Origin: a virus
DNA length: 32,614 nt
IMG/VR virus record: IMGVR_UViG_3300043409_001227
Location: 1-32,614 of that record
Reading direction: 5' to 3' (one strand)
In this document: positions 1 through 29,618 of the stretch, piece by piece
Position numbering within the stretch: the first letter of the stretch is position 1
How the letters are laid out: each line of letters starts with the position of its first letter
Made by a program: the position numbers and the translations under genes
The notes under the pieces: model-generated
Databases searched by the model: none
The model's input: the letters and a program-made list of their open reading frames with translations, nothing else
What the model was told of the DNA's origin: nothing

Positions 1-1
1 T

Positions 2-190
2 CCGATCTGGTATCTAGAGTCGCAAGTGATACTGGATGATGGTAGCGCGACTCCATGGGGAACAATAGGCCGCTATCGCACAAGAAAAGGCGCGATTCAT
101 GTGGGAATGATCATGCGAGAAAGGGGAGAGTCCATATCATGGCCGGGCAATGCGATTCGCATGGGCTTGGCGATGGTGGAGTCTTGTTGA
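2..190 (+). CDS. hypothetical protein, 5' truncated by window
   Basis: Frame 2 is open from the first bases of the window to a TGA at 188-190, giving at least 62 residues without a start. The sense of the sequence looks protein-like (visible piece ends ...NAIRMGLAMVESC), with a mix of hydrophobic and charged residues and no low complexity. The competing frame beginning at 55 reads through the promoter and leader of the next gene, so I prefer this one. No family recognised. The -35 box of the next promoter overlaps its stop codon. Function unknown; only the C-terminus is visible. Confidence 0.5.
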   Translation, partial: PIWYLESQVILDDGSATPWGTIGRYRTRKGAIHVGMIMRERGESISWPGNAIRMGLAMVESC

Positions 191-215
191 CTAATCTGCA
201 TAAAATGCATATACA
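187..215 (+). promoter_or_regulatory. sigma70-type promoter P1
   Basis: TTGACT (187-192), 17-base spacer, TATACA (210-215). It lies directly upstream of the leader and start of the gene at 257. A GAGTC (GANTC) site begins at 217, so it falls at or just before the expected transcription start. A second promoter with the same layout is at 671-699. Confidence 0.65.
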
Positions 216-259
216 TGAGTCGTCCCCACAACGGGCGCACACAACGGAGTCGGACAATG
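198..259 (+). repeat. promoter/leader cassette, copy 1
   Basis: About 62 bases that closely match 682-743 with a few substitutions and one-base indels. Shared elements in order are an ATGCATAT core within the -10 region, GAGTCGT, CCCACAA, GCGCACACAA, GGAGTCGG and ACAATG, the last being the start codon. The cassette carries the promoter -10, a GANTC site at the start point, the ribosome-binding GGAG (inside a second GANTC) and the ATG. Confidence 0.75.
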
Positions 260-433
260 ATCAAGTATCGTAAAATCGGCGGAATTCGCTTTCTTGCTAT
301 CGCGCGCTTGCGGATTAGCTTTTGTTTGGCAAGTAAGGTTAAGCCCGAAACAATGAAACAAGCCAAGCTTTTAAAAGAGCCGGGTTTGCATAATGACAAG
401 CTGCATATTGGTTTCGGAATCATAGCGCGCTAA
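257..433 (+). CDS. small hypothetical protein (58 aa)
   Basis: The ATG at 257 is chosen because GGAG lies 7 bases upstream and because the same leader precedes the gene at 741. A longer start at 215 would fall inside the promoter/leader. The product is strongly basic (many K and R) with a short hydrophobic stretch around residues 8-25. It begins MIKYRKIGGIRF. No family recognised. It sits in a chain of very small genes typical of phage early or accessory regions and is followed 13 bases later by another small gene, probably in the same transcript. Function unknown. Confidence 0.55.
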   Translation: MIKYRKIGGIRFLAIARLRISFCLASKVKPETMKQAKLLKEPGLHNDKLHIGFGIIAR

Positions 434-446
434 GGGAGTCCATGCC

Positions 447-611
447 ATGACAAAGCATTGGCGCATTCAAGTAGAGTTGCGGGAGTTTCGCGATAGCTTG
501 CCGATTAAATATTGGCACACGACTCTTGCCGACTCTGAATTTGAGGCAGTGGAAAACGTGAAGGAACGTCACAACAAAGCCTATTCGGTTAAGGTGCTAG
601 GCGTTTTTTAG
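447..611 (+). CDS. small hypothetical protein (54 aa)
   Basis: ATG at 447 with GGGAG 8 bases upstream; stop TAG at 609-611. The product begins MTKHWRIQVELREF and is mixed charged and hydrophobic, with an alternating pattern that suggests a small alpha/beta fold (strand, turn, then a helix around residues 30-45, ending in a strand VKVLGVF). No family recognised. It follows the gene at 257 by 13 bases and ends 25 bases before an intrinsic terminator, so it closes the P1 transcript. Confidence 0.6.
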   Translation: MTKHWRIQVELREFRDSLPIKYWHTTLADSEFEAVENVKERHNKAYSVKVLGVF

Positions 612-635
612 GCCAAAGAATCCTTGCCAAGGGAT

Positions 636-666
636 AGGCTGGAGTCATTGCGACTCCGGCCTTTTT
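636..666 (+). terminator. intrinsic terminator
   Basis: An 11-bp stem (AGGCTGGAGTC / GACTCCGGCCT, one G-U wobble), 5-base loop ATTGC and a T run. Both stem arms contain a GANTC site. It ends the transcript carrying 257-611. Confidence 0.85.
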
Positions 667-670
667 GCGC

Positions 671-699
671 TTGCACAATGCGCACAATATGCATATATT
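671..699 (+). promoter_or_regulatory. sigma70-type promoter P2
   Basis: TTGCAC (671-676), 17-base spacer, TATATT (694-699). It starts 5 bases after the terminator and drives the gene at 741. GAGTC begins at 700, directly abutting the -10 box, as in P1. Confidence 0.65.
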
Positions 700-743
700 G
701 AGTCGTGCCCACAATGGCGCGCACACAAGGAGTCGGGACAATG
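682..743 (+). repeat. promoter/leader cassette, copy 2
   Basis: Second copy of the 198-259 cassette, including -10 region, two GANTC sites, GGAG ribosome-binding site and start codon. Its conservation across two unrelated coding regions implies that the cassette itself is the selected or duplicated unit. Confidence 0.75.
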
Positions 744-938
744 GCCAGCACAATCGCCGAAAAGCTAGAAGAGAAAAGAGAACGAGTCGCGCAAGCTAAT
801 GATTGGCACAATGATCGAGTCTATTGGGCGCGCTATTGTTTTGATCATGAATTGATAGACTCAACGGAATATGTGCGGCGCCTGCGAAAGGCCGATATCC
901 AATGGGGAAAGATGATTGACGCAATCTATGCGGAATAG
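741..938 (+). CDS. small hypothetical protein (65 aa)
   Basis: ATG at 741 with AGGAG about 8 bases upstream within the leader cassette; the in-frame ATGs at 705 and 714 lie inside the promoter/leader and are rejected. The product is highly charged and predicted helical: an N-terminal amphipathic helix rich in E, K and R (residues 3-22), then a W/Y/H-rich segment (DWHNDRVYWARY) and a second helix with YVRRLRKADIQWGK. No family recognised. Monocistronic: own promoter P2 and own terminator at 961. Function unknown. Confidence 0.65.
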   Translation: MASTIAEKLEEKRERVAQANDWHNDRVYWARYCFDHELIDSTEYVRRLRKADIQWGKMIDAIYAE

Positions 939-960
939 ATAAGGCGCAAGGTAGCAATGA

Positions 961-989
961 AGCCCCGGTTAATCGCCGGGGCTTTTTTT
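961..989 (+). terminator. intrinsic terminator
   Basis: A perfect 8-bp GC-rich stem AGCCCCGG / CCGGGGCT with a 7-base loop, followed by a run of seven T. It ends the transcript of the gene at 741. Confidence 0.9.
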
Positions 990-997
990 GTGCGCGC

Positions 998-1026
998 TTG
1001 CATATACATAAGCTAGACTTTAATCG
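998..1026 (+). promoter_or_regulatory. possible promoter P3
   Basis: TTGCAT (998-1003), 17-base spacer, TAATCG (1021-1026). The sequence GCGCTTGCATATACAT also resembles the core of the two leader cassettes, so this may be a decayed third copy. The -10 box is weak. It would transcribe the tiny ORF at 1047 and perhaps terS. Confidence 0.35.
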
Positions 1027-1046
1027 TTTGGCCTGGAGCTATTGCC

Positions 1047-1112
1047 GTGATTAAGTTGCGTAGGATTGGATTAGAAGGCCGTGGGCGCGTTTTAAGCTTG
1101 GCCGCTATATAG
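1047..1112 (+). CDS. possible 21-residue leader peptide
   Basis: A GTG start with GGAG 8 bases upstream opens a 21-codon frame that stops with TAG at 1110-1112. It begins MIKLRRIG, which resembles the start (MIKYRKIG) of the gene at 257, so it may be a decayed relative of that gene. At this length coding is uncertain. Confidence 0.25.
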   Translation: MIKLRRIGLEGRGRVLSLAAI

Positions 1113-1147
1113 GTAGCGCGCACCTTAGACTTGGCCGTTTTCTTGTT

Positions 1148-1175
1148 TTGTTCTCAGGGGCTTATGTGGTATAGT
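1148..1175 (+). promoter_or_regulatory. probable terS promoter
   Basis: TTGTTC (1148-1153), 16-base spacer, TATAGT (1170-1175), 85 bases upstream of the terminase small subunit start. The stretch 1113-1259 otherwise holds no gene that I can support. Confidence 0.5.
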
Positions 1176-1259
1176 GTTGGCATTGGGAAAGCGCTTGTGT
1201 GTTGTGATACAATCCCTTGACTCGCCATTGCATGGCCGGGAAAGCAAAAGGGGAATCAC

Positions 1260-1892
1260 ATGACAAGCGAAAGCGATAGCAAAGCCCATAAGGCGGAACA
1301 AAAGGCGGAAGCCCGCAAGGCGCGTAATGAAGCGCAAGCGATAGAAGAGACTGCAATCTGGCAAGGGATAGAAGAGAACGCTAGCAAGGCGAAAGAGCTA
1401 GTAAGCCGCAAGCCGGTCATCCCATATACGGAAGAGCTAGCAATCCAGATATGTGAAGAGCTATCCAATGGCGTCTCATTGGCGCGTATATGCGCAAGGC
1501 CGGAAATGCCAGCGCAAGGGACAATCTATCGGATGATAGTGGAAAACCCTTTCTTTCGTGAGATCTACACGCGCGCACGTGAGAACGCCGCTCATACGTT
1601 GTTTGACGAGATGATAGATATCGCTGACGACTCAAGCCGGGATCTGCTAGAAGACGGAAGCGCGAACAATGCCGCGATAGCTAGAGCGCGCCTGCAAATT
1701 GAGACGCGCGCCCGTGTGGCTGGAAAGCTTGCGCCGCGCGTATATGGCGAACGAGTCGAGCAGTTCGCGCAAGCCGTCACCATTAATAACAACACGTTAG
1801 CGATAGACGCGCGCGCCCTAGACGGGACGCAACGCGAGTCCTTGCGCGCCATGCTATTGCAAGCGCGAGACGCTAAGACCATCGATGGTTAA
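1260..1892 (+). CDS. terS: terminase small subunit
   Basis: A 210-residue protein with ATG at 1260 and AGGGGA 5 bases upstream. Residues about 1-50 are a charged, A/K/E-rich helix. Residues about 55-120 match the Sf6 gp1-type small terminase pattern: a DNA-binding helix-turn-helix (QICEELSNGVSLARIC, then MPAQGTIYRMI) followed by NPFFREIYTRARE and the oligomerisation helix ending DEMIDIADD. The C-terminal part contains the usual ARLQIETRARVAGKLAPRVYG. It recognises the packaging site on concatemeric DNA and recruits the large subunit. Oddly, terL is not adjacent: the two are separated by about 2 kb carrying leftward genes and the parS sites. Its codon use (many GCG/CGC pairs) and its GANTC sites match the small genes to its left more than the late genes to its right. 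Confidence 0.9.
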   Translation: MTSESDSKAHKAEQKAEARKARNEAQAIEETAIWQGIEENASKAKELVSRKPVIPYTEELAIQICEELSNGVSLARICARPEMPAQGTIYRMIVENPFFREIYTRARENAAHTLFDEMIDIADDSSRDLLEDGSANNAAIARARLQIETRARVAGKLAPRVYGERVEQFAQAVTINNNTLAIDARALDGTQRESLRAMLLQARDAKTIDG

Positions 1893-2087: not shown

Positions 2088-2103
2088 TGTTTCACGTGAA
2101 ACA
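2088..2103. other. parS: parS site 1
   Basis: A perfect copy of TGTTTCACGTGAAACA, the canonical chromosomal ParB/Spo0J binding palindrome. Like all four copies, it is followed on the + strand by TT. It is intergenic, downstream of the leftward genes. Confidence 0.9.
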
Positions 2104-2134
2104 TTGCCCCCCGGCCCAGGTACCCCCCACAGTT

Positions 2135-2201
2135 AGCCATATGGCTTACTACCTCTAACTATCCCATAGTGTCCCATACCTATGGGATGTAGGCATAGGT
2201 A
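2135..2201. repeat. cluster of palindromes
   Basis: AGCCATATGGCT (2135-2146) is a perfect 12-bp palindrome. TCCCATA-CC-TATGGGA (2172-2187) is a 7-bp inverted repeat that overlaps a second one, TACCTATG (2177-2184) with CATAGGTA (2194-2201). The two overlapping dyads are mutually exclusive as hairpins. They lie between parS sites 1 and 2. Confidence 0.65.
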
Positions 2202-2245
2202 TACCCCCCTACCCTCCCCGGTAGTAGGTTCCCTCCTATAGGGTC

Positions 2246-2425
2246 CTAGCCATGTGTTTCACGTGAAACATTCTCGGCTGGCAGCTCTGTAGGTTTGTCT
2301 GGCAGGCTGCCATCCCTTTGGTAGGGAGGCTGGAACCCGCACTTGTCGCAGTAAAGCTTGTAGTCCTTGATATGGACTGCGCCTTCACAACGACGGCAAC
2401 GCTTGGTTGTTAATCTTAGCGTCAT
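2246..2425 (-). CDS. small zinc-ribbon protein (59 aa)
   Basis: Starts ATG at 2425 (minus strand) with AGGGGA 6 bases upstream. Cys10-x2-Cys13 (CRRC) and Cys26-x2-Cys29 (CDKC) form a four-cysteine zinc ribbon in a basic N-terminal half; the tail is P/E-rich. It stops at TAG (2246-2248). The C-terminal codons (NVSRETHG) are read straight through parS site 2, so this site is inside the gene. Third gene of the leftward group, 22 bases downstream of the unknown gene at 2447-2713. A DNA- or protein-binding adaptor role is plausible for such ribbons but is inference. Confidence 0.7.
   Translation of the reverse strand: MTLRLTTKRCRRCEGAVHIKDYKLYCDKCGFQPPYQRDGSLPDKPTELPAENVSRETHG
2255..2270. other. 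parS: parS site 2
   Basis: Exact TGTTTCACGTGAAACA, 167 bases from site 1. It lies within the 3' end of the zinc-ribbon gene and is translated. Confidence 0.9.
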
Positions 2426-2442
2426 CTAGTTTCCCCTACCAG

Positions 2443-2458
2443 TGTTTCACGTGAAACA
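2443..2458. other. parS: parS site 3
   Basis: Exact TGTTTCACGTGAAACA. The TGA stop of the leftward gene 2447-2713 is formed by bases of this palindrome. It is also just upstream of the ribosome-binding site of the zinc-ribbon gene. Confidence 0.9.
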
Positions 2459-2713
2459 TTTATAAAAGGTAGGCCGCCATTTGCCGTCCCGCAGGACATA
2501 GGCCGTTTCTTTGTCACGGCCAGAAACCGTTGCGACAACCTGCACATCTGGCATTAACCTTGTTGCAAAATTAATTGCTCCGGTCATGTCAGTGCAGTTC
2601 TTAGGGCACAGGGTAAGCTGAACCGACTTGGCTACAAAGTCTGCCTGCACCTCCATAAGGGAACACATAAGTTCCTTGTTGAACAGCGCAGTTTCAAGAT
2701 CTACCTGATCCAT
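2447..2713 (-). CDS. hypothetical protein (88 aa)
   Basis: I place the start at ATG 2713 (MDQVDLETALFNKEL), because AGGA lies about 7 bases upstream. An in-frame ATG at 2734 has no Shine-Dalgarno. The product is a small mixed alpha/beta protein: acidic N-terminal helices, then CPKNCTDM, a helix and a C-terminal strand pair (VQVVATVSG, ETAYVLRDGKW). Two cysteines sit in a C-x3-C arrangement. No family recognised. Middle gene of the leftward group. The last codons and stop (KCFT, TGA) are supplied by parS site 3. Confidence 0.6.
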   Translation of the reverse strand: MDQVDLETALFNKELMCSLMEVQADFVAKSVQLTLCPKNCTDMTGAINFATRLMPDVQVVATVSGRDKETAYVLRDGKWRPTFYKCFT

Positions 2714-2743
2714 CTGGTTTCCTAACCATTTCAATAGTTTACA

Positions 2744-3379
2744 TCACTTTGGTGGGGGTGGCAACGGCATCCAGTGGGTTACACCCCCTAGCCAATTGCC
2801 AGATGCATTAGACCAGCCAGCTTTAAACTCGTTAGCTTCCCATGCCGCCGTTTGGTAAAACCCAGGCTCATAGACAATGATAACCGTCCCATCCTTGGGT
2901 GCCGTCTCTATAGGGTGCCAATTGCCACTGAACCGGGGTTGATACATCCCATAGCGCTTTAACGCCGCCTTCATGCCATCGACGTTCTTGCCGTAGTGCA
3001 TGGCTACCTCCCGGTAGCTGCCGCCTTTGCCAAGCATCTGCGCAGCTTCCGCCAGGCGCTCTTTGGTCCAGAAGTACCCCTCCTCTCGCTTTTCCTTGGT
3101 AGGGACTGCCGTAGGTACAATCGGTGCGCCCATCTCAATGTTGATAGCCTTGGCAAGCGCCTCAATGATCTTGGGGCCACATCCAGCAGCAAACCTCCAC
3201 TCAGCAGGCCCGTCTACAACAACGTCCCACATGGAACCGTCATGACCGTACACATGGCCAAGAAACCCGCACACCCGCCGATTGATGCTATGCGGGCCAA
3301 AATCATGCCGGGGCGAGTCCTCAAGGGTTACCATAAAGTCCCCAACACTTAGGTTCCTAAGCTTTTCTTCAAAGTCCAT
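2744..3379 (-). CDS. HTH protein with C-terminal DUF551-like domain
   Basis: The preferred start is ATG at 3379 (MDFEEKLRNLSVGDF), since AGGGGG lies 5 bases upstream. The alternative ATG at 3412 is inside parS site 4 (MFHVKH) and has no ribosome-binding site. The product is 211 residues. The N-terminal half is of unknown fold (residues 1-85). The middle (about 100-145) contains WTKERLAEAAQML and a helix-turn-helix-like SYREVAMHYGKNVDGMKAAL. The C-terminal 60 residues follow the DUF551 pattern: W-x-P-I-E-T-A-P-K-D-G-T near the start and THWMPLPPPP at the end. DUF551 proteins are common in phages and of unknown role. The HTH suggests DNA binding. First gene of the leftward transcript. Confidence 0.7.
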   Translation of the reverse strand: MDFEEKLRNLSVGDFMVTLEDSPRHDFGPHSINRRVCGFLGHVYGHDGSMWDVVVDGPAEWRFAAGCGPKIIEALAKAINIEMGAPIVPTAVPTKEKREEGYFWTKERLAEAAQMLGKGGSYREVAMHYGKNVDGMKAALKRYGMYQPRFSGNWHPIETAPKDGTVIIVYEPGFYQTAAWEANEFKAGWSNASGNWLGGVTHWMPLPPPPK

Positions 3380-3395
3380 TTGATCCCCCTGAGGA

Positions 3396-3411
3396 TGTTT
3401 CACGTGAAACA
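3396..3411. other. parS: parS site 4
   Basis: Exact TGTTTCACGTGAAACA, immediately upstream of the first leftward gene and next to another dyad, GTAAC-C-GTTAC (3419-3429). Located between promoter and first gene, it could act as an operator as well as a ParB loading site. Confidence 0.9.
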
Positions 3412-3721
3412 TTTGGTTGTAACCGTTACCCAGACCATCCGGGCACCCCCTGACTTGCTGGCACGGTTAACACCAGCAGGGCATCTTGGAGTCCGTTGCC
3501 CCTTTTTCAGGGCTTCGTGAACCCGCTGGCACGGACAAACACCAGCCGAATGTCTTGGTGGGCTGGATGGGCTCCCAGCATCTTGAGGTCCCATAGCGCT
3601 ATGGGGTCTTACCGGCCTTCCCGGCCACCATCTCTTATATAACATACCCCCTATATTTTTACAAAAACATACTAGCATGATTTTAACAAAGGGCTATATT
3701 ATTTTTAGGCAGGGGGCGGCT
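3412..3721. other. divergent intergenic region with repeats
   Basis: About 310 bases with no firm gene. It holds a near-direct repeat (GCTGGCACGG...AACACCAGC at about 3470-3490 and 3529-3550), each half a GCTGG/CCAGC hairpin; a perfect 16-bp palindrome CCCATAGCGCTATGGG (3586-3601 region); an AT-rich divergent promoter zone (3636-3690); and a leftward frame (3400-3678) with no ribosome-binding site. That frame's translation, including the repeated A-G-V and a KSGGARM string, resembles the degenerate sequence of phage Ash-type ORFs, so a small protein cannot be excluded. Confidence 0.45.
3636..3664 (-). promoter_or_regulatory. probable promoter of leftward genes
   Basis: On the minus strand TTGTAA (3664-3659), a 17-base spacer and TATATA (3641-3636). 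It would give a leader of about 250 nt that includes the 16-bp palindrome, the GCTGG/CCAGC repeats and parS site 4 before the gene starting at 3379. Confidence 0.5.
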
Positions 3722-3893: not shown

Positions 3894-5621
3894 ATGACAA
3901 CGCTTAACCTTGATGGCCAGCAGATTGACATCGAACGCCAGCTCATGGAACTGGATAGGGCCGACTGTGAAGACAGCCTCTACACATTCTTGAAGCACTC
4001 ATGGAAATATATTGATGCGTCACCCTTCACGGAGGGCTGGCCTATTGAAGCCATAGCTGAGCATCTTCAGGCAGTTGCTGATGGCGAGATCCGCAGGCTC
4101 ATCATCAACATCCCGCCTAGAATGGGAAAGTCCTCCATTACCTCCTGCGCTTTCCCTGCATGGGTATGGGCGCAGCCATGGCGGACCCCAACCAGTGGGC
4201 CGGGCGTCCAGTTCCTGCATGCCTCCTACGCCCAGCAGCTTTCCCTGCGTGATTCGGTGAAGTGCCGCCGCCTCATTGAAAGCCCATGGTACAGGGAACT
4301 TTGGGGCGACAGGTTCAAGCTGACCTCCGACCAGAACACCAAAGGGCGTTTTGACAATGATCAGAATGGTTCCCGTCTTTCAACGTCTGTGGGTTCAGCT
4401 CTCACTGGTGAGGGCGGCTCTATTATTGTTGTCGATGACCCCAATGCAGCGCAAGAAGCCTTCTCTGAAGCAACAATTGCCGCAACCATCGAATGGTGGG
4501 ACTCTGCGCTCTCGACCCGTCTCAATGACCCCAAGACGGGAGCGTTTGTTGTTATCCAGCAGCGGCTGTCTGAAGAAGATCTGACCGGCCACATCATGTC
4601 CAAAGACGAAGGCGAGTGGACGCACCTCTGCCTTCCCATGCGCTATGAATGGCAAAGGCACAGCTACACATCGATAGGCTGGAACGACCCCAGAGGCTGC
4701 GACGACAACGGGACGCCTCTGGTTGAAGTGACCGAAGAAGGTGACCGTGTCGCCATCAGCCCGGAAGCCCAAGTTGAATTGGACGACCGTGAAGGCAAGC
4801 TCCTTTGGCCGGATCGTTTTGGCGAGACCGAAGTCATGATCCTTGAGAAGCAGCTTGGCCCATGGGCGGCTGCCGGTCAGCTTCAGCAACGCCCGGAGCC
4901 CAAGGGCGGCGGCATCATCAAGCGGGAGTGGTGGAAACCTTGGGAGGCAACCAACTTCCCAGCCATGGATCTCATAATCGCTACCCTGGACACCGCATAT
5001 ACGGCCAAGACCCAGAACGACCCGTCAGCCATGAGCGTGTGGGGCGTCTTTAGCGACGAGAACTCAGGCTCTGCCAATGCTCCCGGCCATGCAGGCAGCA
5101 GAGGTGGCGAACGTGTCAGCTACGCCCGCAGCTACGTTGATGAAGCGCCAAAGGTCATGCTGATGTACGCATGGCAAGGACGGTTTGAGCTTCATGACCT
5201 TGTCCTGAAGGTGTCCGAGACTTGCCGGATGATGAAAGTGGACACCCTGCTCATCGAAAACAAAGCCGCCGGTCACTCCGTAGCCCAAGAAATGCGCCGC
5301 ATGTACGGTGGTGAGCGCTTTGGCGTCCACATGTACGATCCTAAAAGCCAAGACAAATTGGCCAGGCTTTATTCTGTCCAGCATTTGTTTGCCGAAGGGC
5401 TGGTCTATGCCCCCATCAAGCAGTGGGCAGAGATGGTCATCACCCAAGTAGGCCAGTTTCCTAAAGCCAAGCATGACGATTTGGTTGATACCGTAAGCAT
5501 GGCAATGCGTCATCTGCGCGATACGGGCGCGATCATGCGCAACGACGAGTTCCAGTTGGGCGTTGACGATAGCTTGGCCTTTAAGGGCAATAATCAATGG
5601 GAGCCGCTCTATCCAGTTTAG
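3894..5621 (+). CDS. terL: terminase large subunit
   Basis: I start at ATG 3894 (MTTLNLDGQQ), with GGA about 9 bases upstream and directly after the small ORF. This gives 575 residues, normal for the family. The ATPase domain has Walker A PPRMGKS (about 74-80), a Q-rich adenine-side element (YAQQLSLRD) and Walker B SIIVVDDP (about 176-183). The RNase H-fold nuclease domain shows an acidic strand TLDTAYTAK near residue 366, a central LLIENKAAGHSV, and the final HDDLVD near 526-531, giving the three acidic metal-binding positions. It drives DNA into the prohead and cuts the concatemer. It belongs to the Terminase_6-type TerL group. First large gene of the late operon. Confidence 0.95.
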   Translation: MTTLNLDGQQIDIERQLMELDRADCEDSLYTFLKHSWKYIDASPFTEGWPIEAIAEHLQAVADGEIRRLIINIPPRMGKSSITSCAFPAWVWAQPWRTPTSGPGVQFLHASYAQQLSLRDSVKCRRLIESPWYRELWGDRFKLTSDQNTKGRFDNDQNGSRLSTSVGSALTGEGGSIIVVDDPNAAQEAFSEATIAATIEWWDSALSTRLNDPKTGAFVVIQQRLSEEDLTGHIMSKDEGEWTHLCLPMRYEWQRHSYTSIGWNDPRGCDDNGTPLVEVTEEGDRVAISPEAQVELDDREGKLLWPDRFGETEVMILEKQLGPWAAAGQLQQRPEPKGGGIIKREWWKPWEATNFPAMDLIIATLDTAYTAKTQNDPSAMSVWGVFSDENSGSANAPGHAGSRGGERVSYARSYVDEAPKVMLMYAWQGRFELHDLVLKVSETCRMMKVDTLLIENKAAGHSVAQEMRRMYGGERFGVHMYDPKSQDKLARLYSVQHLFAEGLVYAPIKQWAEMVITQVGQFPKAKHDDLVDTVSMAMRHLRDTGAIMRNDEFQLGVDDSLAFKGNNQWEPLYPV

Positions 5622-9240: not shown

Positions 9241-11874
9241 ATGGCGGGTAAGAACACAAAGGAAGCTTTGAGGCTTGCTCGCCAAATTCGTGCGGAAGGC
9301 GGCAAAACGGCCTATCTGTTCAACGATCCAGTTGGATATTTAGCCAAAAAAGGCAAGGGCCTTAGCGAGATACCTGGACAAATAGCGGACGCTACGTCTT
9401 CTGTTTGGGGGCACCCAATCACCAAGGCAATGCGGGTTGCTCCGGTGGAAACCAGCCAAGCTATTGGAAGGTATGTTGCCGCTAAGGGTCGAGAGGGTGC
9501 CGAATACGTTTACGAGAGTCCGTTTGCGGCTACTCGCAAAGCGGTTGATTTTGCCACTGATTGGTCTCCTAACCCTTATGTCCAGGGCGCAAAAGCAATG
9601 TTTTCTTCGTCCCCAGCCAATGCTGGTGAGGACGAAATGGCTCGGCAAGTTCAATACGGCATCCGGCCCGAAAGCGAATACCGGGGCGAAGAGCAGTATC
9701 AGCTCCCTGCACAGTTTGCTGATGGGGGCATTGCTCGCCAGCGCTATGCTGATGACGGCGCAACACGCTCTAAAAAAGCAGATGGCGGGATCAATTATAC
9801 TGGGGACTTCTCAACTCCCCAGTATGCTCAGATGTACTATGAGGGTCTGCCAAAAATTGGCCCTGCTGGGCAAATTCTTGGGCGGCTGTTCCCAAATCCA
9901 ACGACAACCGGCGCATACGACAAGTACATGACCAGCCAACAAACTGCGTCTGCGCCCACTGCTGCGCCTGCGCCCCTTGATACCCCCGGCCAGCGCCCAA
10001 TAACAAATGTGTCCGCTAACACATCCCCACCAATGCGGGCTTCAATTGATCTTGTAAAATCAGGGAACGCCTCTTCTTCTGGGGGCAACCTTGCGGGCTC
10101 TCCTTGGGGCGGCGTCTACGCAGGCGGGAACAGCTCAGATTTCTTTGGTCAACTTCAGAAGGACATCGCTGGCCAGCAGTCTAGGCCGCTGCCAAAAATT
10201 GCCCCACTCACGGATCGCGGCCCCCAAAATGAAGCGCCAAAGCTTGCTGCCCCAAGCAATAGCGTTTCTGAAGCTGGAGGCGCACCTACCGGCAACGCAG
10301 CCCCTGTTCCCCGGAGCCCTTTTGAGCCCAGCGGTGGTGGGGACGGCCTGACTGGATCATATAACCTGCCTTCAGCTACTCCTGAGGGCATAATGTCATC
10401 GACATCAACTGGCCCATCCATGCCGTCAGGGGCAACGCCGAGCTTCTCGTTTACGGGCGCACCGATAGGCAAGGTTGATACCTTTGACCTTCCTGCTCCA
10501 ATAGCGCCGGAACCCATTGGCACAAAATCGGTTTCCACAACGTCTGTCGCGCCTACGCCGGGCATGTTTGGCAATATGTTTACAGGGAAGGCTACTGCCC
10601 CTGCTGCGCTTGGGATGGCCAACAATGCTGCGGCAAACCAAGCCGCTCTAGGCGCTCAAGTGGGCACTCAAGTTGGCAATGCGTTGAACACAATAGGGTC
10701 AACGCCAGCGGCTGGCCCGGCGGCTTCTGCGGGCAAATCCTCAAGCCCATATGGGGCGCTTGGAGTTGGGCCTCAGAGCAACCAACCTACGTTTGATGCC
10801 ATGGGCAATGTGGCTACGCCTGGCTCAAGCCCTTATACGGCAGCGCCATCTGCTCCTGCGCCGGGAGCGCCTTCCTCCAAGGGCACAACGCCGGGTGTTC
10901 AATCACCCTCATTTGCTGCGCCGCCTCCGTTTGCGACAGCGGATGAGCTTGGCAAGGATGTGCCTGAGGACATGCTTGGCGCAACTATTGGCGGTTTGCC
11001 GTTTAGCCAAGCCGCACAAGACCAGTCAGTAAGCGGCGAAACAGGATCATTTGGAGCAGCGGCATCATTGGCGTCTGGCGCTTTTGGGGATGCTACTCCA
11101 GGGGCAAGCCCAGGGCCGTCTGGGTCAAATGAGGGAACTGCTGGTTTAGGCGCTGGCACACCGGGCACTACAGGCGCTGACTTAGGGTCTAACGCGCCAT
11201 CAGCAGCCCCTGCCATGGGCATTTCAGAAATGAATCCTGCTGACATGCCAGCGGATATGGCTGCTGCAATAGCCGCTGCGCAGAACGAAGCTGCCCCTCC
11301 TGATGCGCCGGATGCTCCTGACGCGCCATCGGCACCGGACGCCCCGGCAGCCCCAAGCGCCCCGGACGCTCCTGCGGCTCCTGCGGCTCCTGCGGCCCCT
11401 GATGACGCTGCGGATAAGGGAGATGATGAAGGCGACGAAGGCGATGATGAAGGCGACGAAGGCGACGAAGGCGATGAGGGTGAAGGCGAAGGCGAAGGTG
11501 AGGGGGAGGGCGAAGGTGGAGGAGGGGGTGAGGGCGGCGGTGAAGGTGGCGACGGCGATGGTGACGGCGATGGCGACGGCGACGGCGATGGTGACGGCGA
11601 TGGCGACGGCGATGGGGGAGACGGCGGCGAAGGTGGAGAGGGCGGTGAAGGGGGAGGCGGCGATGGTGGTGGAGATGGCGGCGGCGGTGAAAAGCGCGGT
11701 GGCCGTGTAGCGCCTCACGTGAAGAAAGCTTTGCGCCTTACCGACAAGCCTGCAAAACGGATCAAGCTAAAACCGCATGCGTCTTCTACCAAAAATCTTG
11801 ACACGCAAAAAATGGTAAAGACAGCCATGGGTATTTTGGATAAAAGGAGGAAGCAGCGCGCTAAAGGGGGATAA
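9241..11874 (+). CDS. large low-complexity late protein
   Basis: 877 residues, ATG at 9241 with AAGGGGA 5 bases upstream. Residues 1-200 are ordinary and mainly helical (ALRLARQIRAEGGKTAYLF...), with A-D-G-G-I motifs at about 160 and 180. Residues 200-685 are A/P/G/S/T-rich and probably disordered. Residues about 687-720 are D-A-P/S-A-P repeats. Residues about 721-819 are almost pure G/D/E (GDEGD, then GEGE, then GDGD dipeptides). The last 58 residues are basic, beginning K-R-G-G-R. The acidic tract followed by a basic tail suggests a long linker that repels or mimics DNA. The tract is encoded by hexanucleotide-like repeats and so may vary in length. Probably a virion component from its operon; function unknown. 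Confidence 0.75.
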   Translation: MAGKNTKEALRLARQIRAEGGKTAYLFNDPVGYLAKKGKGLSEIPGQIADATSSVWGHPITKAMRVAPVETSQAIGRYVAAKGREGAEYVYESPFAATRKAVDFATDWSPNPYVQGAKAMFSSSPANAGEDEMARQVQYGIRPESEYRGEEQYQLPAQFADGGIARQRYADDGATRSKKADGGINYTGDFSTPQYAQMYYEGLPKIGPAGQILGRLFPNPTTTGAYDKYMTSQQTASAPTAAPAPLDTPGQRPITNVSANTSPPMRASIDLVKSGNASSSGGNLAGSPWGGVYAGGNSSDFFGQLQKDIAGQQSRPLPKIAPLTDRGPQNEAPKLAAPSNSVSEAGGAPTGNAAPVPRSPFEPSGGGDGLTGSYNLPSATPEGIMSSTSTGPSMPSGATPSFSFTGAPIGKVDTFDLPAPIAPEPIGTKSVSTTSVAPTPGMFGNMFTGKATAPAALGMANNAAANQAALGAQVGTQVGNALNTIGSTPAAGPAASAGKSSSPYGALGVGPQSNQPTFDAMGNVATPGSSPYTAAPSAPAPGAPSSKGTTPGVQSPSFAAPPPFATADELGKDVPEDMLGATIGGLPFSQAAQDQSVSGETGSFGAAASLASGAFGDATPGASPGPSGSNEGTAGLGAGTPGTTGADLGSNAPSAAPAMGISEMNPADMPADMAAAIAAAQNEAAPPDAPDAPDAPSAPDAPAAPSAPDAPAAPAAPAAPDDAADKGDDEGDEGDDEGDEGDEGDEGEGEGEGEGEGEGGGGGEGGGEGGDGDGDGDGDGDGDGDGDGDGDGGDGGEGGEGGEGGGGDGGGDGGGGEKRGGRVAPHVKKALRLTDKPAKRIKLKPHASSTKNLDTQKMVKTAMGILDKRRKQRAKGG
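11403..11696 (+). repeat. GGYGAY/GGYGAR simple-sequence tract
   Basis: About 290 bases of imperfect three- and six-base units (GGCGAC, GGCGAT, GAAGGC, GGTGAG) within the 877-residue gene. They encode its G/D/E tract. Unit variation suggests slippage in the past. Confidence 0.85.
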
Positions 11875-11877
11875 GCG

Positions 11878-13470
11878 ATGTCTGATTGCGGTGTAACGTC
11901 GTCTTTTATCAAAGAGTTTTGTGTTTTCAGATCGTCTGCTGACAGAACCTACAAGAACTCCGCTGGCAAAAGGATGCAGTGGATTCTTGATCTGCGGTTG
12001 GCCATGTTGGATGGCCGCATTCTCCATGAGGTAGCCAGCCAATTTTGGGACATGTTTGGCGACATAGATTGCCAGCTTGCCGGTATTGAAATGGCCGGTA
12101 TCCCATTGGTGTCGGCCATTGCTCTTGAAGGGCACAGGCGCGGCAAAGATGTCTCTGCCCTTATTGTTCGCGTCAAACGCAAGAAGCACATGGCGGCTGA
12201 GATCATTGAAGGTGCGCCAAACGGCAAACCGATCCTCCTGATAGATGACGCGCTCAATTCTGGCCGCAATGCTGAGCTTGCTAGGAAGAAGCTTGAAGCC
12301 ATAGGCCTAAAGGTTGCCGGTCTGTTCTGCATTGTTGATTTCCGGTCTAATGCTGGCATCCATTGGCGCGTAAACAACAAGGTAGAGGTTACCAGCCTTT
12401 TGGATTTAGGCAGTTTGAACCTTCAATACTCCCGATCTCATGCCCCCCTTGCAGACTACGAGATCAAATGGTCGTTTGCGGCCCCCAATCCTAAGCTTGA
12501 CTTTGCGGTGGCCAAATCAACGCCTGTGATCTTTGAGGACAAGATTATTTTTGGCTCGGATTCAGGGATTGTGTGGGGCGTTGAGAAGAACACAGGACGT
12601 ATTTGCTGGCAATTTAAGACCAATGACCGCACTGGTAAGGGAGTCCTGTCTTCTCCCGTTGTTCGGAACGGAAATGTCTATTTCGGTTCCTATGATGGCG
12701 GTTTGTACTGCCTAGACGCAAAGACTGGGCGTCAGGTATGGGCAAGCATGTGCTGCAATTGGATTGGCTCAAGCCCAGCGGTCCATGGTGACAAGATCTA
12801 TGTTGGTTTGGAGTACAGAAGCTCAACGCAGGGCGGCAAAATAACTTGTTTTGACCTAAAAGGTCAGATTTTGTGGACTAAACCGACCGTCAAACCCCTG
12901 CATTCCTCACCAATCATCCATAGCCATGGCGGCAACGACTATCTGATCACTGGCACCAATGATTGCGACCTGTTTGCGCTTGATCCGGCCACTGGCGATG
13001 TTATTTCGCACGTTAAAACAGGCGGTCCAACCAAATACCATTGCGCTGCATGGGGTAACCGGGCTGTGGCCTGCGCTTTTGATGCGATCTATGTCTGGAA
13101 CTATCTGACTGGGGACGTTCTCCTTAAGTTAGAGACCGAAGACATCAATTATTCCAGACCTTTAGTGGTTGGGGACATAGCATTTTGCGGGTCTGCTGAT
13201 GGCAACCTCTACATGATCAACATGCGGTCCTGCGAATTGGTTGGACAGATTGATGTGGAGGAGAAGATTCATTCCTCACCAGCGCTCATTGGCGGACTGG
13301 TCTGGGTTGGGACATCAGCGGGAGAGCTGATCGCAATCGACCCCATAAACTTTGAAATGATGTACCGATTTGCCTTTCCAGAGCGCATAACGTGTACACC
13401 CGTGTCAGATGGGAATTTAATCTTTGTTTACACCTACGATAACCGCATTTGGGCTATATCCAAGAAGTAG
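11878..13470 (+). CDS. phosphoribosyltransferase-like domain fused to beta-propeller
   Basis: 530 residues; ATG at 11878, 3 bases after the previous stop, with AAAGGGGGA inside that gene's end. Residues about 25-180 resemble orotate phosphoribosyltransferase (PyrE): SAGKRMQWILDLR (28-40), GIEMAGIPLVSAIAL (69-83), the flexible-loop pattern R98-x3-K102-x-H104 (as R-x3-K-x-H in PyrE), EG, and the PRPP-loop strand ILLIDDALNSG (119-129) with both aspartates 123-124. The phosphate-loop threonines are replaced (N127, R130), so catalysis is uncertain. Residues about 200-530 hold seven to eight PQQ/BamB-type propeller blades, recognisable by repeated SSP-x-V, G-x-x-x-G and LD-x-x-T-G elements. No signal peptide. 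The domain fusion is unknown to me; it could be a sensor, modifying enzyme or virion protein. It sits within the head operon, not with nucleotide genes. Confidence 0.85.
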   Translation: MSDCGVTSSFIKEFCVFRSSADRTYKNSAGKRMQWILDLRLAMLDGRILHEVASQFWDMFGDIDCQLAGIEMAGIPLVSAIALEGHRRGKDVSALIVRVKRKKHMAAEIIEGAPNGKPILLIDDALNSGRNAELARKKLEAIGLKVAGLFCIVDFRSNAGIHWRVNNKVEVTSLLDLGSLNLQYSRSHAPLADYEIKWSFAAPNPKLDFAVAKSTPVIFEDKIIFGSDSGIVWGVEKNTGRICWQFKTNDRTGKGVLSSPVVRNGNVYFGSYDGGLYCLDAKTGRQVWASMCCNWIGSSPAVHGDKIYVGLEYRSSTQGGKITCFDLKGQILWTKPTVKPLHSSPIIHSHGGNDYLITGTNDCDLFALDPATGDVISHVKTGGPTKYHCAAWGNRAVACAFDAIYVWNYLTGDVLLKLETEDINYSRPLVVGDIAFCGSADGNLYMINMRSCELVGQIDVEEKIHSSPALIGGLVWVGTSAGELIAIDPINFEMMYRFAFPERITCTPVSDGNLIFVYTYDNRIWAISKK

Positions 13471-15237: not shown

Positions 15238-15450
15238 ATGAAAACCACATATCAAGCCTACTACCAATATGAACTGAAGAAACTGATCCATGAGAACATC
15301 GAGAGACTGAAAGAAGGTCTCGTAAGTTCTTATCAAATCGAAGGTTTTGACTTTTCGGGCTACCGACACCAAGTAGGTAGGGTCGAAGGACTTCGCTTGG
15401 CTCTCCAGCTTTGCGAAGATGCAGAAGCCATTGTAAATGGCAAAGAGTAG
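15238..15450 (+). CDS. small helical phage protein (70 aa)
   Basis: ATG at 15238 with AGGGGG 5 bases upstream. Mostly helical: YYQYELKKLIHENIERLKEGL, then a short G/Y-containing turn and HQVGRVEGLRLALQLCEDAEAI. The pattern H-x2-G-x2-x-G-L-x2-A-L-x-LC-E is one I associate with small phage proteins found next to head genes. Role unknown. It ends 11 bases before the co-chaperonin-like gene and is probably co-transcribed. Confidence 0.7.
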   Translation: MKTTYQAYYQYELKKLIHENIERLKEGLVSSYQIEGFDFSGYRHQVGRVEGLRLALQLCEDAEAIVNGKE

Positions 15451-15461
15451 GGGGATTAAGC

Positions 15462-15854
15462 ATGCCGTATATGCAGATGGAACATGAAACCGATCCGGCT
15501 CAAAGCCTGAAGAATGACCTGGGGGACATTTCAGACGTTGAAGTCTTCAACAATCAGATACTGGTGGCGGTCTACATCCGCCCTCAGAAGACAAGAAGTG
15601 GAATCATACTCACTGACAAAACAACTGAAGAAGACCGTTACCAGTCCAAGGTAGGTTTGGTTGTCAAGAAAGGCCCGCAGGCCTTTTTGGACAAGTCTGG
15701 TGAATGGTTCAAGGGTATCTCAATCGAAGAAGATGATTGGATCGTGTTCCGCCCGGCTGACGGTTGGAGCATTGTCGTCAACAATGTCCTGTGTCGCATG
15801 ATTGACGATGTCAATATCAAGGGTCGCATAAGCCACCCTGACCAGGTCTGGTAA
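15462..15854 (+). CDS. GroES-like co-chaperonin (Cpn10 fold)
   Basis: 130 residues; ATG 15462 chosen for AGGGGGAT upstream (the in-frame ATG at 15411 lies inside the previous gene). The sequence follows the Cpn10 plan: VEVFNNQILVAVYIRP then a mobile-loop-like KTRSGIILTDKT, YQSKVGLVVKKGP, an acidic EEDDWIVFRPADG (GroES has G-D-x-V) and a closing strand pair with VLCRMIDD. The hydrophobic I-I-L triplet in the loop is what GroEL binds in GroES and T4 gp31. It probably partners host GroEL to fold the capsid protein, in keeping with its place just before scaffold and capsid. Similar genes occur in other phages. Divergent from bacterial GroES; assignment by pattern only. Confidence 0.75.
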   Translation: MPYMQMEHETDPAQSLKNDLGDISDVEVFNNQILVAVYIRPQKTRSGIILTDKTTEEDRYQSKVGLVVKKGPQAFLDKSGEWFKGISIEEDDWIVFRPADGWSIVVNNVLCRMIDDVNIKGRISHPDQVW

Positions 15855-15865
15855 GGAGAAAAACC

Positions 15866-16780
15866 ATGGCAGAAGCAGAAGAGACATTAGAATTTAGACT
15901 GGACGACGCACCTAAAATGGATCGAACAAAAGACAGCGAAGCCGTTGTTGAAATTGTTGATGATCCCGTTTCTCCGGATGATGGAAAACCGGAGAAGGAT
16001 GTCGATAAGGCTCTGAAAAAGCTCAATAAAAAGCTTGATGAGGAGCGCAAGGCCCGCATGGAAGCTGAAGCTGTGGCTAGGCAAGCTACAGAACAGGCCC
16101 GTGTCCTCCATAATGAAGCCAGCGACAGCAATCTGCACCTTGTCAGCGGCGCTATCGAGTCAGTTAGGCGCGATCAGGAGATCTTAAAGTCTCAGCTTCG
16201 CGATGCTATGGCCATTGGCGACTATGACAAAGCCGCTGATGTGCAGGAGCAGATGGCTTCTAACATCACAAATCTGCGTCAACTTGAGCGCGGCTTTGAC
16301 GAGATGAAGCAGCAGCCAAGGTTGCAGCCGCAAGCTGCTCCCAGCTCTGAGGTTGATGTTGACTATCTAATCAACAACGTCACCCCAAGGTCTGCCGAAT
16401 GGTTGCAGCGGAACCGTGAGCATGTCTCAGATGCTCGCGCTATCCGTGTGATGAAGCGAGCCCATGAAGACGCAGTGGACTACGGCATTGCGCCGGAGTC
16501 TGATGCCTATTTCCAGTTTGTAGAGAACCGGATGGGCATTGGTGGAGACAACCGGAAGTCCATACCAGAAGTAGACAACGTCATGTCTTCAGCGGCTTCC
16601 AGCACCCAGAGGCGCTCTGCGCCGCCATCGGCTCCTGTTTCGCGTCAGCCAATTGATTCGCCAAACCGTCCGGGGGTCATCCACCTGACGGCAGCGGAGG
16701 TTGAGGCTGCGCGAATCAGTGGGATCACCCCACAGGAGTACTACAAAAACAAAACGCGCGACTCTGGTCGCCTGAACTAA
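15866..16780 (+). CDS. putative scaffolding protein
   Basis: 304 residues; ATG at 15866 with AAGGAG upstream. Acidic N-terminus (residues 1-50), a long charged coiled coil (about 50-160: ALKKLNKKLDEERKARMEAE and following), then a folded part with VDVDYLINNVTPRSAEWLQ and RAIRVMKRAHEDAVDYG, and a short basic C-terminus (YYKNKTRDSGRLN). Acidic coiled coil with basic tail, location two genes before the capsid gene and size all suit a scaffold that lines the prohead. Not recognised as a named family, so the call rests on architecture and position. Confidence 0.7.
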   Translation: MAEAEETLEFRLDDAPKMDRTKDSEAVVEIVDDPVSPDDGKPEKDVDKALKKLNKKLDEERKARMEAEAVARQATEQARVLHNEASDSNLHLVSGAIESVRRDQEILKSQLRDAMAIGDYDKAADVQEQMASNITNLRQLERGFDEMKQQPRLQPQAAPSSEVDVDYLINNVTPRSAEWLQRNREHVSDARAIRVMKRAHEDAVDYGIAPESDAYFQFVENRMGIGGDNRKSIPEVDNVMSSAASSTQRRSAPPSAPVSRQPIDSPNRPGVIHLTAAEVEAARISGITPQEYYKNKTRDSGRLN

Positions 16781-16790
16781 GGAGAAAACC

Positions 16791-17387
16791 ATGTCTGATA
16801 CAGCAAAACGTCGCGGTCGCCCGCCCAAAACCCTTTCTGAGGCTATTGCAGACAACAATCTGCCGTCAGAAGCCGATAACTTTGCACCGGCAAGGGATCG
16901 CCCAACCATGCGACCAGTTATGCGTGAAGAAGATCCCAGGGTGTCCGCTGCCCGCCGTGCTGCGGAAATTCGCGGGCATTTGGGGAATATGGATGAGGGT
17001 GAGGACAAGTTCCGGGCTCCTCCTGCTCCTCCCGGCTGGGAATACGAGTGGAAGCGCCGCCTTCTCCTTGGTCAGGAAGACCCGTCATATCAGGTATCAC
17101 TTGCGCGAATTGGCTGGGAACCTGTCCCGACCTATCGCCACCCTGAAATGATGCCTTTGCAGGGTAACCACCCGACAATTGAGCGTGATGGGATGGTTCT
17201 CATGCAGCGTCCGGGCATAATTTCGGATGAAGCGCGCGCAATGGAGCTGAGCAGGGCCAGAGGCCAAGTTCGCGTGAAAGAACAGCAGCTTAACGCGACA
17301 CCGGATGGCACTTTGACCCGTGACCATCCCAGTGCCCGGCCCCAAATCAAGAAGGGCTACGAGCCAATTCCTGTCCCGGAAGGCTAA
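16791..17387 (+). CDS. conserved phage protein, head module
   Basis: 198 residues; ATG at 16791 with AAGGAGAA upstream, 10 bases after the scaffold stop. It begins with an AT-hook-like KRRGRPPKT. The central part has PGWEYEWKRRLLLGQEDPSYQ, then GWEPVPTYRHPEMMP and GMVLMQRPGIISDEARAMEL, a series I associate with conserved proteins in marine and freshwater phages near capsid genes. Function unknown; the AT-hook may contact DNA. It is the last gene before a terminator. Confidence 0.75.
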   Translation: MSDTAKRRGRPPKTLSEAIADNNLPSEADNFAPARDRPTMRPVMREEDPRVSAARRAAEIRGHLGNMDEGEDKFRAPPAPPGWEYEWKRRLLLGQEDPSYQVSLARIGWEPVPTYRHPEMMPLQGNHPTIERDGMVLMQRPGIISDEARAMELSRARGQVRVKEQQLNATPDGTLTRDHPSARPQIKKGYEPIPVPEG

Positions 17388-17399
17388 AATAAAACAATT

Positions 17400-17428
17400 A
17401 AGGGGCTGGCCAAAAACCGGCCCCTTTA
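17400..17428 (+). terminator. intrinsic terminator
   Basis: AAGGGGCTGG (17400-17409) pairs with CCGGCCCCTT (17417-17426), 10 bp with one wobble, loop CCAAAAA, followed by TTT. It separates the scaffold transcript from the capsid transcript. Confidence 0.8.
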
Positions 17429-17453
17429 CATTTGTGATTTATAGATGTAATTT
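17425..17453 (+). promoter_or_regulatory. possible capsid-gene promoter
   Basis: TTTACA (17425-17430), 17-base spacer, TAATTT (17448-17453), starting at the tail of the terminator in an AT-rich stretch. It would give the decoration and capsid genes their own strong transcript, with a leader of about 110 nt containing two hairpins. Confidence 0.45.
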
Positions 17454-17479
17454 TTGCTTCGAAGCCTTTGCAGGCTCAT

Positions 17480-17538
17480 CTGTCCCCCGGCGCGGACAGC
17501 TAACTCATCCCTGGTTCCTAATCTCCCCGGCGCGAGAT
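17480..17538 (+). promoter_or_regulatory. twin hairpins with identical loops in capsid leader
   Basis: Hairpin A: CTGTCC (17480-17485), loop CCCGGCGC, GGACAG (17494-17499). Hairpin B: ATCTC (17521-17525), loop CCCGGCGC, GAGAT (17534-17538). The stems differ while the 8-base loops are the same, so the loop sequence looks selected. They lie upstream of the ribosome-binding site AAAAGGAG for the gene at 17570. Confidence 0.6.
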
Positions 17539-17569
17539 GACGAGCTTCCTGTAAAAAGGAGATTCCGTC

Positions 17570-18151
17570 ATGGCGAACACGCAAGCCTATAACGGTTTCA
17601 GTCAGTATAAGGGGAATGGCTCTGCTCCGACCTATGAACAGGTCGTTGCCACCATTCAGTCCACCAATACCACTGCAATTTACTTTGGCGATCCCGTTGA
17701 GCCCAACGCCGCTGGCTATATCATCCAGGGCACTGGCTCGCTCACCGTTGCCGGTGTTTTCGTTGGTTGCAAGTATCTCTCGACAAGCCAGAAGCGCACT
17801 GTTTGGTCTAACTGGTGGCCGGGCGCTGACAATACGGGCAATGTTGAGGCCTACATCATCAACGATCCCAATGCTCAGTTCGTTGCGTCTGGCGACACCT
17901 CCACCTCTCTGTGGGTGCAGGCTGCCATCAACGCCAACTGCGGCTACGCGATTGGTACGGGCAATACCGCAACTGGTATTTCCGGCGCTTATCTCGACTC
18001 CACCACCATCAACACCACTTCAACTCTGCCGTTCCGCGTTGTCGGGTATGTCGTTGATCCCCCTGGGGCTCCCGGCACCGAGACTGGCGCGTATCGTAAG
18101 GTCATCGTCGCTTTCAATAGCGTCTCGACCAAGCAGCTTACCGGCATCTAA
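17570..18151 (+). CDS. putative capsid decoration/head protein
   Basis: 193 residues; ATG at 17570 with AAAAGGAG upstream. The composition is T/S/G/A/V-rich and beta-strand-like, with SLTVAGVFVGCKYLS near residue 57, VWSNWWPGAD, and a central GTGNTATGISGAY. It ends with strands FRVVGYVVDPPG and VIVAFNSV. Position directly before the major capsid, size and predicted beta fold suggest a head decoration or cement protein, or a head-associated stabiliser. No family is certain. Confidence 0.65.
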   Translation: MANTQAYNGFSQYKGNGSAPTYEQVVATIQSTNTTAIYFGDPVEPNAAGYIIQGTGSLTVAGVFVGCKYLSTSQKRTVWSNWWPGADNTGNVEAYIINDPNAQFVASGDTSTSLWVQAAINANCGYAIGTGNTATGISGAYLDSTTINTTSTLPFRVVGYVVDPPGAPGTETGAYRKVIVAFNSVSTKQLTGI

Positions 18152-27068: not shown

Positions 27069-27299
27069 GTGGATCAGACAACCATCAATCTGGCCATTGG
27101 TGCCGCTCTTGCAGTTGCTGGATGGTTTGCCCGCATCCTGTGGGAAGCCGTCCAGTCACTCAAGTCTGATGTTCATCAAATTGAAGTGGACTTGCCAGTA
27201 AACTACGTTCGCAAGGACGACATGGACAAGCGCATGGACCACATCGAAACGATGTTCCAACGCATCTATGACAAGCTGGATGGGAAGGCCGACAAGTGA
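27069..27299 (+). CDS. membrane-anchored small protein
   Basis: 76 residues from a GTG at 27069, with AAGGAG about 10 bases upstream. One N-terminal TM segment (INLAIGAALAVAGWFARILW), then a charged coiled coil ending DDMDKRMDHIETMFQRIYDKLDG. This TM-plus-coil plan fits an accessory holin or XhlA-like protein of the lysis cassette. Its stop overlaps the next start (GTGA). Confidence 0.65.
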   Translation: MDQTTINLAIGAALAVAGWFARILWEAVQSLKSDVHQIEVDLPVNYVRKDDMDKRMDHIETMFQRIYDKLDGKADK

Positions 27300-27766
27300 T
27301 CAGCGCAGACACCCTCACCAAGCCGGTAGCTGCTGTGACAGCGATCATGGCAATGATTGGTGGTGGATACTCGCTGTACGATAAGGTCAAGTTACCTCCC
27401 AAGGACATTCTTCAATGGGATGCGGAACACTTTAGCATCACCAATGGGCCTGCCTCTGGCTCGTTCAAGGTGGTCGTAGCCCGCCAGAAAATTCGGGATG
27501 ACTGCACAGTTGAAGATTTCAGCCTTGAGGTTCGTGACTCGGACTACATGGTTCACAAGGCACTGCCGTCTGTTGCCAAGTTTTCTGGCCCAGCCAGCCC
27601 AACGGTAGATAAATTTGGCTACACAATGACGGTTGAAAAACCAGAAGGCGTTGCCCTTGGCGGCGCAAAGCTGATCGCCCGCATCATGTACAAATGCCCT
27701 GAAGGCAATGTTGTGATTGCATATCCTGACCACAAAAACCTGACCTTTAACATTGAGGGGCGATAG
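27296..27766 (+). CDS. membrane-anchored lysis-region protein
   Basis: 156 residues from a GTG at 27296 overlapping the previous stop; GGGAAG lies upstream. N-terminal hydrophobic segment (PVAAVTAIMAMIGGGYSLY) and a beta-rich rest with two separated cysteines (DDCTVEDF, MYKCPEGN). If the segment inserts, the body would be periplasmic. A spanin-like or other envelope role is possible from its place before the holin; no family recognised. Confidence 0.6.
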   Translation: MISADTLTKPVAAVTAIMAMIGGGYSLYDKVKLPPKDILQWDAEHFSITNGPASGSFKVVVARQKIRDDCTVEDFSLEVRDSDYMVHKALPSVAKFSGPASPTVDKFGYTMTVEKPEGVALGGAKLIARIMYKCPEGNVVIAYPDHKNLTFNIEGR

Positions 27767-28288: not shown

Positions 28289-28289
28289 C

Positions 28290-28799: not shown

Positions 28800-28841
28800 A
28801 TTGCTGAGCGGTGATATAAAGGGCGGATCAAGAGGTTACCC

Positions 28842-29615: not shown

Positions 29616-29618
29616 CAC

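Follow-up and report, generated by a model that had tools for sequence, protein, structure and literature searches.

Why does a phage without a recognisable ParB carry several perfect chromosomal parS sites beside its terminase genes? The window, by which we mean the whole stretch of DNA that was analysed (32,614 bases), is an IMG/VR viral record classed as linear. We found that its gene content is that of phage packaging, head and lysis (Sf6-like terS, terL, portal, capsid, adaptor and endolysin). The head-gene region also holds a 530-aa protein (11878-13470) with a phosphoribosyltransferase-like part and a PQQ/BamB-type beta-propeller, and an 877-aa ORF (9241-11874) containing an extended low-complexity tract that is acidic and rich in glycine (runs of D, G and E).

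Four exact parS sites lie between terS and terL

When we scanned the window, the 16-bp palindrome TGTTTCACGTGAAACA was present exactly at four positions, all between the two terminase genes:

1260..1892, plus strand: terminase small subunit (Sf6-like), bounding the interval on the left (PF20901, E 1.6e-35)
2088..2103, no strand: parS site 1, a perfect 16-bp palindrome, 196 bp 3' of the terS stop
2246..2425, minus strand: 59-aa ORF that carries paired CxxC motifs and has parS site 2 at its end
2255..2270, no strand: parS site 2, overlapping the final codons of the leftward 59-aa ORF
2443..2458, no strand: parS site 3, overlapping the stop codon of a leftward 95-aa ORF
2447..2713, minus strand: small gene (ORF), function unassigned, MDQVDLETALF...
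2744..3379, minus strand: accessory gene with a DUF551 domain at its C-terminus (PF04448, E 2.8e-5)
3396..3411, no strand: parS site 4, closely 5' of the leftward DUF551 gene
3894..5621, plus strand: terminase large subunit, bounding the interval on the right (phrog_38, E 3e-85)

Beyond these four sites, the window holds no match to the palindrome at three or fewer mismatches. The sequence-only reading had reported the same four positions, a further TT shared by all of them, and an expectation far below one per window; each of these points was confirmed. None of 100 dinucleotide shuffles contained four matches, base composition predicts 5e-6 exact sites in the window, and TT directly follows the palindrome on its 3' side at all four sites. 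The earlier identification of the sites as chromosomal-type parS is likewise supported, by the exact match to the consensus and by conservation in relatives. Sites 2 and 3 overlap the ends of ORFs, so the sites of the window lie at gene borders and are not all non-coding. Site 4 would encode MFHVKH if the DUF551 gene started at the ATG at 3412 instead of the start codon at 3379.

The cluster is conserved in one clade while its surroundings turn over

We scanned viral contigs for terL and obtained 80 related loci, among which exact parS clusters recur upstream of terL. Exact or one-mismatch sites were present in 35 of 50 whole related records, and a reversed control pattern gave zero matches; in the records whose positions were inspected, the sites of one record form a single cluster, and the long records have no parS outside the cluster interval. 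To compare like with like, we considered 21 terS-terL intervals, consisting of the window and those relatives in which both terminase genes are assembled and TerL is at least 80% identical. The sequence-only reading had named relatives that lose the sites and keep the genes as what would speak against it; within the clade the outcome is in its favour, as all 21 intervals retain between one and five exact or one-mismatch sites. Together they hold 72 sites, and none with two or three mismatches. Three further loci (L027, L028 and L040; TerL 80-83%, no sites) end before terS and are therefore uninformative, and they were left out.

The intervals are 0.5 to 5 kb long, and the genes and surrounding sequence turn over among them. 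All 21 share no 9-mers other than sub-words of parS. Comparison of the window with its close relative L005 shows 64/64 identity at the parS positions and 84% identity in the remaining interval. Because the gene content of the interval differs among relatives, the DUF551 gene is not required for the cluster. A homologue of the small gene at 2447..2713 is found in G045 (32695-32961) with parS at both its ends. Five relatives have a tRNA-Gln(TTG) on the minus strand within the interval, which might aid in tracing the host:

L045, 7355-7430, minus strand: tRNA-Gln(TTG)
L046, 5807-5880, minus strand: tRNA-Gln(TTG)
L020, 1411-1485, minus strand: tRNA-Gln(TTG)
L022, 3294-3367, minus strand: tRNA-Gln(TTG)
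L025, 5918-5991, minus strand: tRNA-Gln(TTG)

The relatives provided about 100 distinct sites, which come from related sequences and are not independent events; they comprise 91 exact sites, 9 with a single mismatch and 0 with two. Flanking these sites, a purine precedes the palindrome in 97/100, and a pyrimidine (90/100) and then a T (70/100) follow it; other flanking positions carry nearly no information. The spacing between parS and terL is not fixed (68 to 4749 bp) and shows no helical phasing across the clade intervals, which rules out an operator tied to a promoter by a fixed distance or helical phase. Contamination from a host origin region is ruled out by the terS-terL placement in some 20 separate contigs. 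A marker of the replication origin is likewise ruled out: the cumulative GC-skew minimum of the 61-kb relative G025 is at about 16 kb and its parS sites are at about 30 kb; matches to the DnaA box are not near parS.

In sister groups (TerL identity 45-75%), parS is mostly absent. Two loci, L048 (TerL 72%) and L260 (69%), have one one-mismatch site each in the equivalent interval, and the sister groups L042, L051, L053, L057, L060 and L065 have terS and terL and lack the motif. Conservation within the clade intervals and absence from most sister groups indicate, at the level of sequence comparison, that the cluster is an old, selected feature of one clade.

The sister groups also bear on whether the reader of the palindrome is instead phage-encoded (TerS, the GcrA homologue described below or a Cro/YdaS-like regulator, for example), with the palindrome serving as a packaging or operator site and its identity with parS being coincidental. 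The cluster adjoins terS, near the usual location of the packaging site in such phages, and several phage HTH proteins are present. Against this, the palindrome is missing from sister phages whose TerS and TerL are of the same kind, which speaks against a pac site read by TerS; an unrelated 16-bp palindrome would equal parS by chance with a frequency of 1.5e-5; and the identical sequence is found in unrelated phages whose hosts belong to other phyla. We consider a phage-protein reader very improbable.

No ParB, ParA or tyrosine integrase is recognised in the clade

The sequence-only reading had noted no visible ParB, and this observation extends to the relatives. The window gave no ParB_N (PF02195) match even at E<=1, and ParB_N was found in 0 of 51 records (the window and 50 related), while control genomes gave matches. 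These records include G025 (61,106 bases), which has a 146-bp end overlap at 99.3% identity and is most probably a closed genome. The search for parA, parB and integrase genes that the same reading had suggested was run on the relatives, where the 19 longer records also contain no ParA-type AAA_31 (PF13614; 0/19) and no tyrosine integrase (PF00589; 0/19, in a search restricted to tyrosine as opposed to serine recombinases). Outside its structural genes, G025 encodes among others ERF, YqaJ, RusA, an O-like initiator, a helicase, a primase and Cro/YdaS-like regulators. In a non-exhaustive search we recognised no CI-like repressor, nor lysogeny genes that would make long-term partition obviously useful.

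These results bear on two suggestions of the sequence-only reading, that the phage has its own ParB outside the window and that the sites partition a prophage. The first finds no support in the 50 related records that lack ParB_N, and an ordinary integrated or ParABS-bearing prophage is not supported by longer relatives that lack ParB_N, AAA_31 and tyrosine integrase alike. The sites could still be the centromere of a plasmid-like prophage whose ParA and ParB are encoded beyond the window, since the window is a fragment and relatives have Cro/YdaS-like regulators and an O-like initiator; set against the closed relative and 49 further records without ParB_N, and the 19 longer records described above, this is already largely refuted and the least probable of the explanations we weighed. 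A divergent phage protein outside PF02195, with parS-like specificity, may also read the sites.

The probable host is alphaproteobacterial

GcrA is an alphaproteobacterial cell-cycle regulator. We found a GcrA homologue in all four relatives tested (E 4e-24 to 3e-18):

G025 (L085), 11756-12463: GcrA homologue
G045 (L098), 15342-15875: GcrA homologue
G033 (L095), 11460-12011: GcrA homologue
G021 (L089), 17291-17761: GcrA homologue

These homologues suggest that the host of this freshwater clade is probably alphaproteobacterial; phiCbK also encodes a GcrA homologue (PMC9437464). The closest TerL matches in GTDB genomes lie on MAG contigs whose labels are too mixed to indicate a host (beta, Paceibacterota, Rhizobiales and Opitutae). 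The parS of H. neptunium is identical to TGTTTCACGTGAAACA and its ParB binds the site in vitro (PMC6650430), which supports recognition of the clade sites by a host ParB, and the parS sites of Caulobacter are close variants (PMC7022226).

The alphaproteobacterial genomes with parS that we inspected have 2-3 copies in 3-9 Mb, at one locus; this is too small a number of chromosomal sites for the flanking preference to indicate host origin. A phage of 45-61 kb thus equals a whole alphaproteobacterial chromosome (2-3 per genome) in its number of sites, so that replication would give a large excess of sites. Replicating phage genomes could then act as a decoy that titrates ParB off the host centromere and disturbs segregation and division, with resources freed or division blocked; in Caulobacter and Hyphomonas, ParB is an essential protein (PMC7022226). 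However, a decoy would not have to sit at a set position, and the cluster keeps to one interval with no sites elsewhere in long records, and some members have a single site (L038). We therefore regard a decoy as distinctly unlikely.

A second motif also touches on the host cell cycle. GANTC, the CcrM methylation motif, is depleted across these phage genomes, as may be expected for phages of hosts with CcrM. Upstream of terS in the window it is dense:

1..1259, no strand: GANTC-dense block upstream of terS, with 22 GANTC as compared to 2.2 expected at the rest-of-window rate

In G045, 28257-31256 holds 40 GANTC as compared to 6.3 expected, and in G028, 27069-30068 holds 24 as compared to 4.8; the block upstream of terS is weaker in G025, G021 and G033. 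Other palindromic pentamers are also raised in G025, so the GANTC effect may be partly one of local composition. The block is a possible second cell-cycle-linked element, and together with the phage GcrA it may mean that the host cell cycle is read in two ways. Within the window, a promoter-like repeat occurs twice, at 206-258 and 690-744: GCATATA(C/T)AT...GAGTCGT(C/G)CCCACAA, then GGAGTCGG(G)ACAATG, in which GAGTC adjoins the AT-rich element and again adjoins the ribosome-binding site.

parS clusters recur in distant and unrelated phages

Three scans of IMG/VR for closely spaced parS pairs returned 20, 29 and 22 stretches, many of them outside the clade, and only 2 of 24 multi-site records had ParB_N above the cut-off. 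Among reference phages, several of them cultured and unrelated, the following carry multiple sites and no ParB_N:

Ruegeria phage vB_RpoS-V10 (MH015255): 3 exact parS
Ruegeria phage DSS3_MAL1: 2 exact parS
Lactobacillus phage Bacchae (MG765277): 2 exact parS and 1 near
Bacillus phage vB_BcoS-136 (MH884508): 4 exact parS
Butyrivibrio virus Arian (MN882551): 3 exact parS, one overlapping a predicted promoter
Gordonia phages MK450435 and MH479923: 2 exact parS each
Inovirus (filamentous) L415, bajarodino virus 6 (PQ006135, 5,910 bases): six exact parS
phi29-like PZA: 3 one-mismatch parS
phi29-like Goe23: 4 parS, one exact

We found no parS in phiCbK, CcrColossus, Paracoccus phage Pkon1, Manatee Spring phage MW202675 or Roseobacter phage CRP-902; the absence from phiCbK, CcrColossus, Pkon1 and CRP-902 indicates that alphaproteobacterial phages at large do not share the strategy.

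Several of the parS-pair records fall in the same terminase/portal group, as very distant lineages, and have parS upstream of terL, at about 140 bp in G066/L437, about 420 bp in G055/L108 and about 490 bp or more in L442. In one distant family, recovered in a portal-based survey, the sites are downstream of terL in 6 contigs and upstream in 5. Placement is therefore strict only in the clade of the window, and beyond it we do not claim that parS generally goes with a position upstream of terL. One-mismatch sites were also seen about 320 bp upstream of distant terL genes in four contigs (L330:1972, L377:722, L385:2786 and L388:234).

This placement raises the alternative that the location itself is functional. 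ParB clamps loaded upstream of terL would cover the beginning of the late operon, the packaging start or both. They would damp terL transcription or terminase action until replication dilutes ParB per genome, or would organise concatemers for packaging together with SMC. The strict terS-terL placement in the clade despite turnover of the interval, and the upstream sites of the three distant lineages, are consistent with such control of late genes or packaging, which fits the fixed place better than capture and retention do. However, the wide range of spacings to terL without helical phasing and the mixed placement in the distant family count against it, as does the report that loss of native Spo0J left the expression of parS-adjacent genes unaltered in B. 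subtilis (PMC7022226). We consider location-coupled control rather unlikely.

A host-ParB loading zone is the probable reading

The phages of this clade, which have parS and no recognisable ParB, very probably borrow the ParB of their host. Use of host ParB, one of the options of the sequence-only reading, is the best reading of the sequences, given chromosomal-type sites and no recognisable phage ParB. On these grounds the cluster is probably a host-ParB loading zone, or pseudo-centromere, beside the packaging and late genes. It is very likely that the chromosomal ParB of the probable alphaproteobacterial host would recognise the one to five sites, close as a CTP clamp and slide across the terS-terL segment. 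As a likely second step, a host partition complex would form on the phage DNA, where ParA, polar anchors and SMC/condensin could act.

What the phage would gain is more tentative, as the three functions offered by the sequence-only reading (partition, sequestration, silencing or insulation) would look the same at the level of sequence. The benefit may be capture, positioning or retention in the host of a phage chromosome that is not integrated, for example retention while lytic growth is deferred, as might be drawn by analogy from phi29 with Spo0J. Capture and retention have precedents in phi29/Spo0J and SGI1; simple partition leaves the fixed place beside terL unexplained, which counts against the loading zone as a partition device.

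More broadly, centromere borrowing could be a recurrent and largely unrecognised phage strategy, tied in this clade to the packaging/late-gene junction, GcrA and the GANTC block, and coupling DNA position, late development and the host cell cycle via ParB and CcrM/GcrA; we regard this as possible but doubtful. The signature is a clear comparative one of phages recruiting a host chromosome-segregation protein, for which the main example so far has been spore entrapment of phi29. It bears on how integrase-less phages persist in slow-growing or asymmetrically dividing hosts, and the Ruegeria phages vB_RpoS-V10 and DSS3_MAL1 are cultured systems open to study. It also calls for caution, as parS in a contig need not signal a chromosome origin.

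Comparison with known systems

P1, N15 and mycobacterial prophages encode their own ParA and ParB. They likewise have centromere-like sites on phage DNA, but no ParB_N or ParA-type AAA_31 was found in the clade records searched. In the open literature we found phage use of chromosomal parS only via citations of phi29, and of plasmid parS via SGI1. That a phage can carry host parS while encoding no ParB is already known from phi29. In the literature searched, which included few subscription journals, we found no description of an exact cluster that is clade-wide and fixed in position in probably alphaproteobacterial phages, or of its recurrence in unrelated phages.

SGI1 has parS-like sites that recruit the ParABS of IncC plasmids, which stabilises SGI1 and disturbs the owner of the system (PMC10954446). 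As in the clade, a mobile element without a partition protein mimics the parS of another replicon; in contrast, SGI1 is an integrative mobilizable element that copies a plasmid parS, whereas here a phage carries a chromosomal one.

For phi29, Spo0J of B. subtilis is reported to act on the phage genome in spore entrapment (Meijer et al. 2005, as cited in PMC9437464). Like the phi29/PZA group, the clade of the window combines several parS sites of host chromosomal type with no ParB of its own. In the phi29 group, however, the sites are spread over the genome and mostly have one mismatch, whereas those of the clade are exact and clustered between terS and terL. Furthermore, the probable host of the clade does not sporulate, and the two groups have different terminase and portal families.

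Lytic deferment and CtrA sites have been described in alphaproteobacterial phages (PMC9437464), which are wired to the host cell-cycle machinery and share the class of the clade's probable host. CtrA-type regulation was ruled out here, as TTAA-N7-TTAA sites are not enriched in the clade phages, and in the phages of that study GcrA-type sites had no uneven distribution (PMC9437464). In contrast to the CtrA-site phages, the candidate links to the host cell cycle in the clade of the window are ParB and perhaps GcrA/CcrM.
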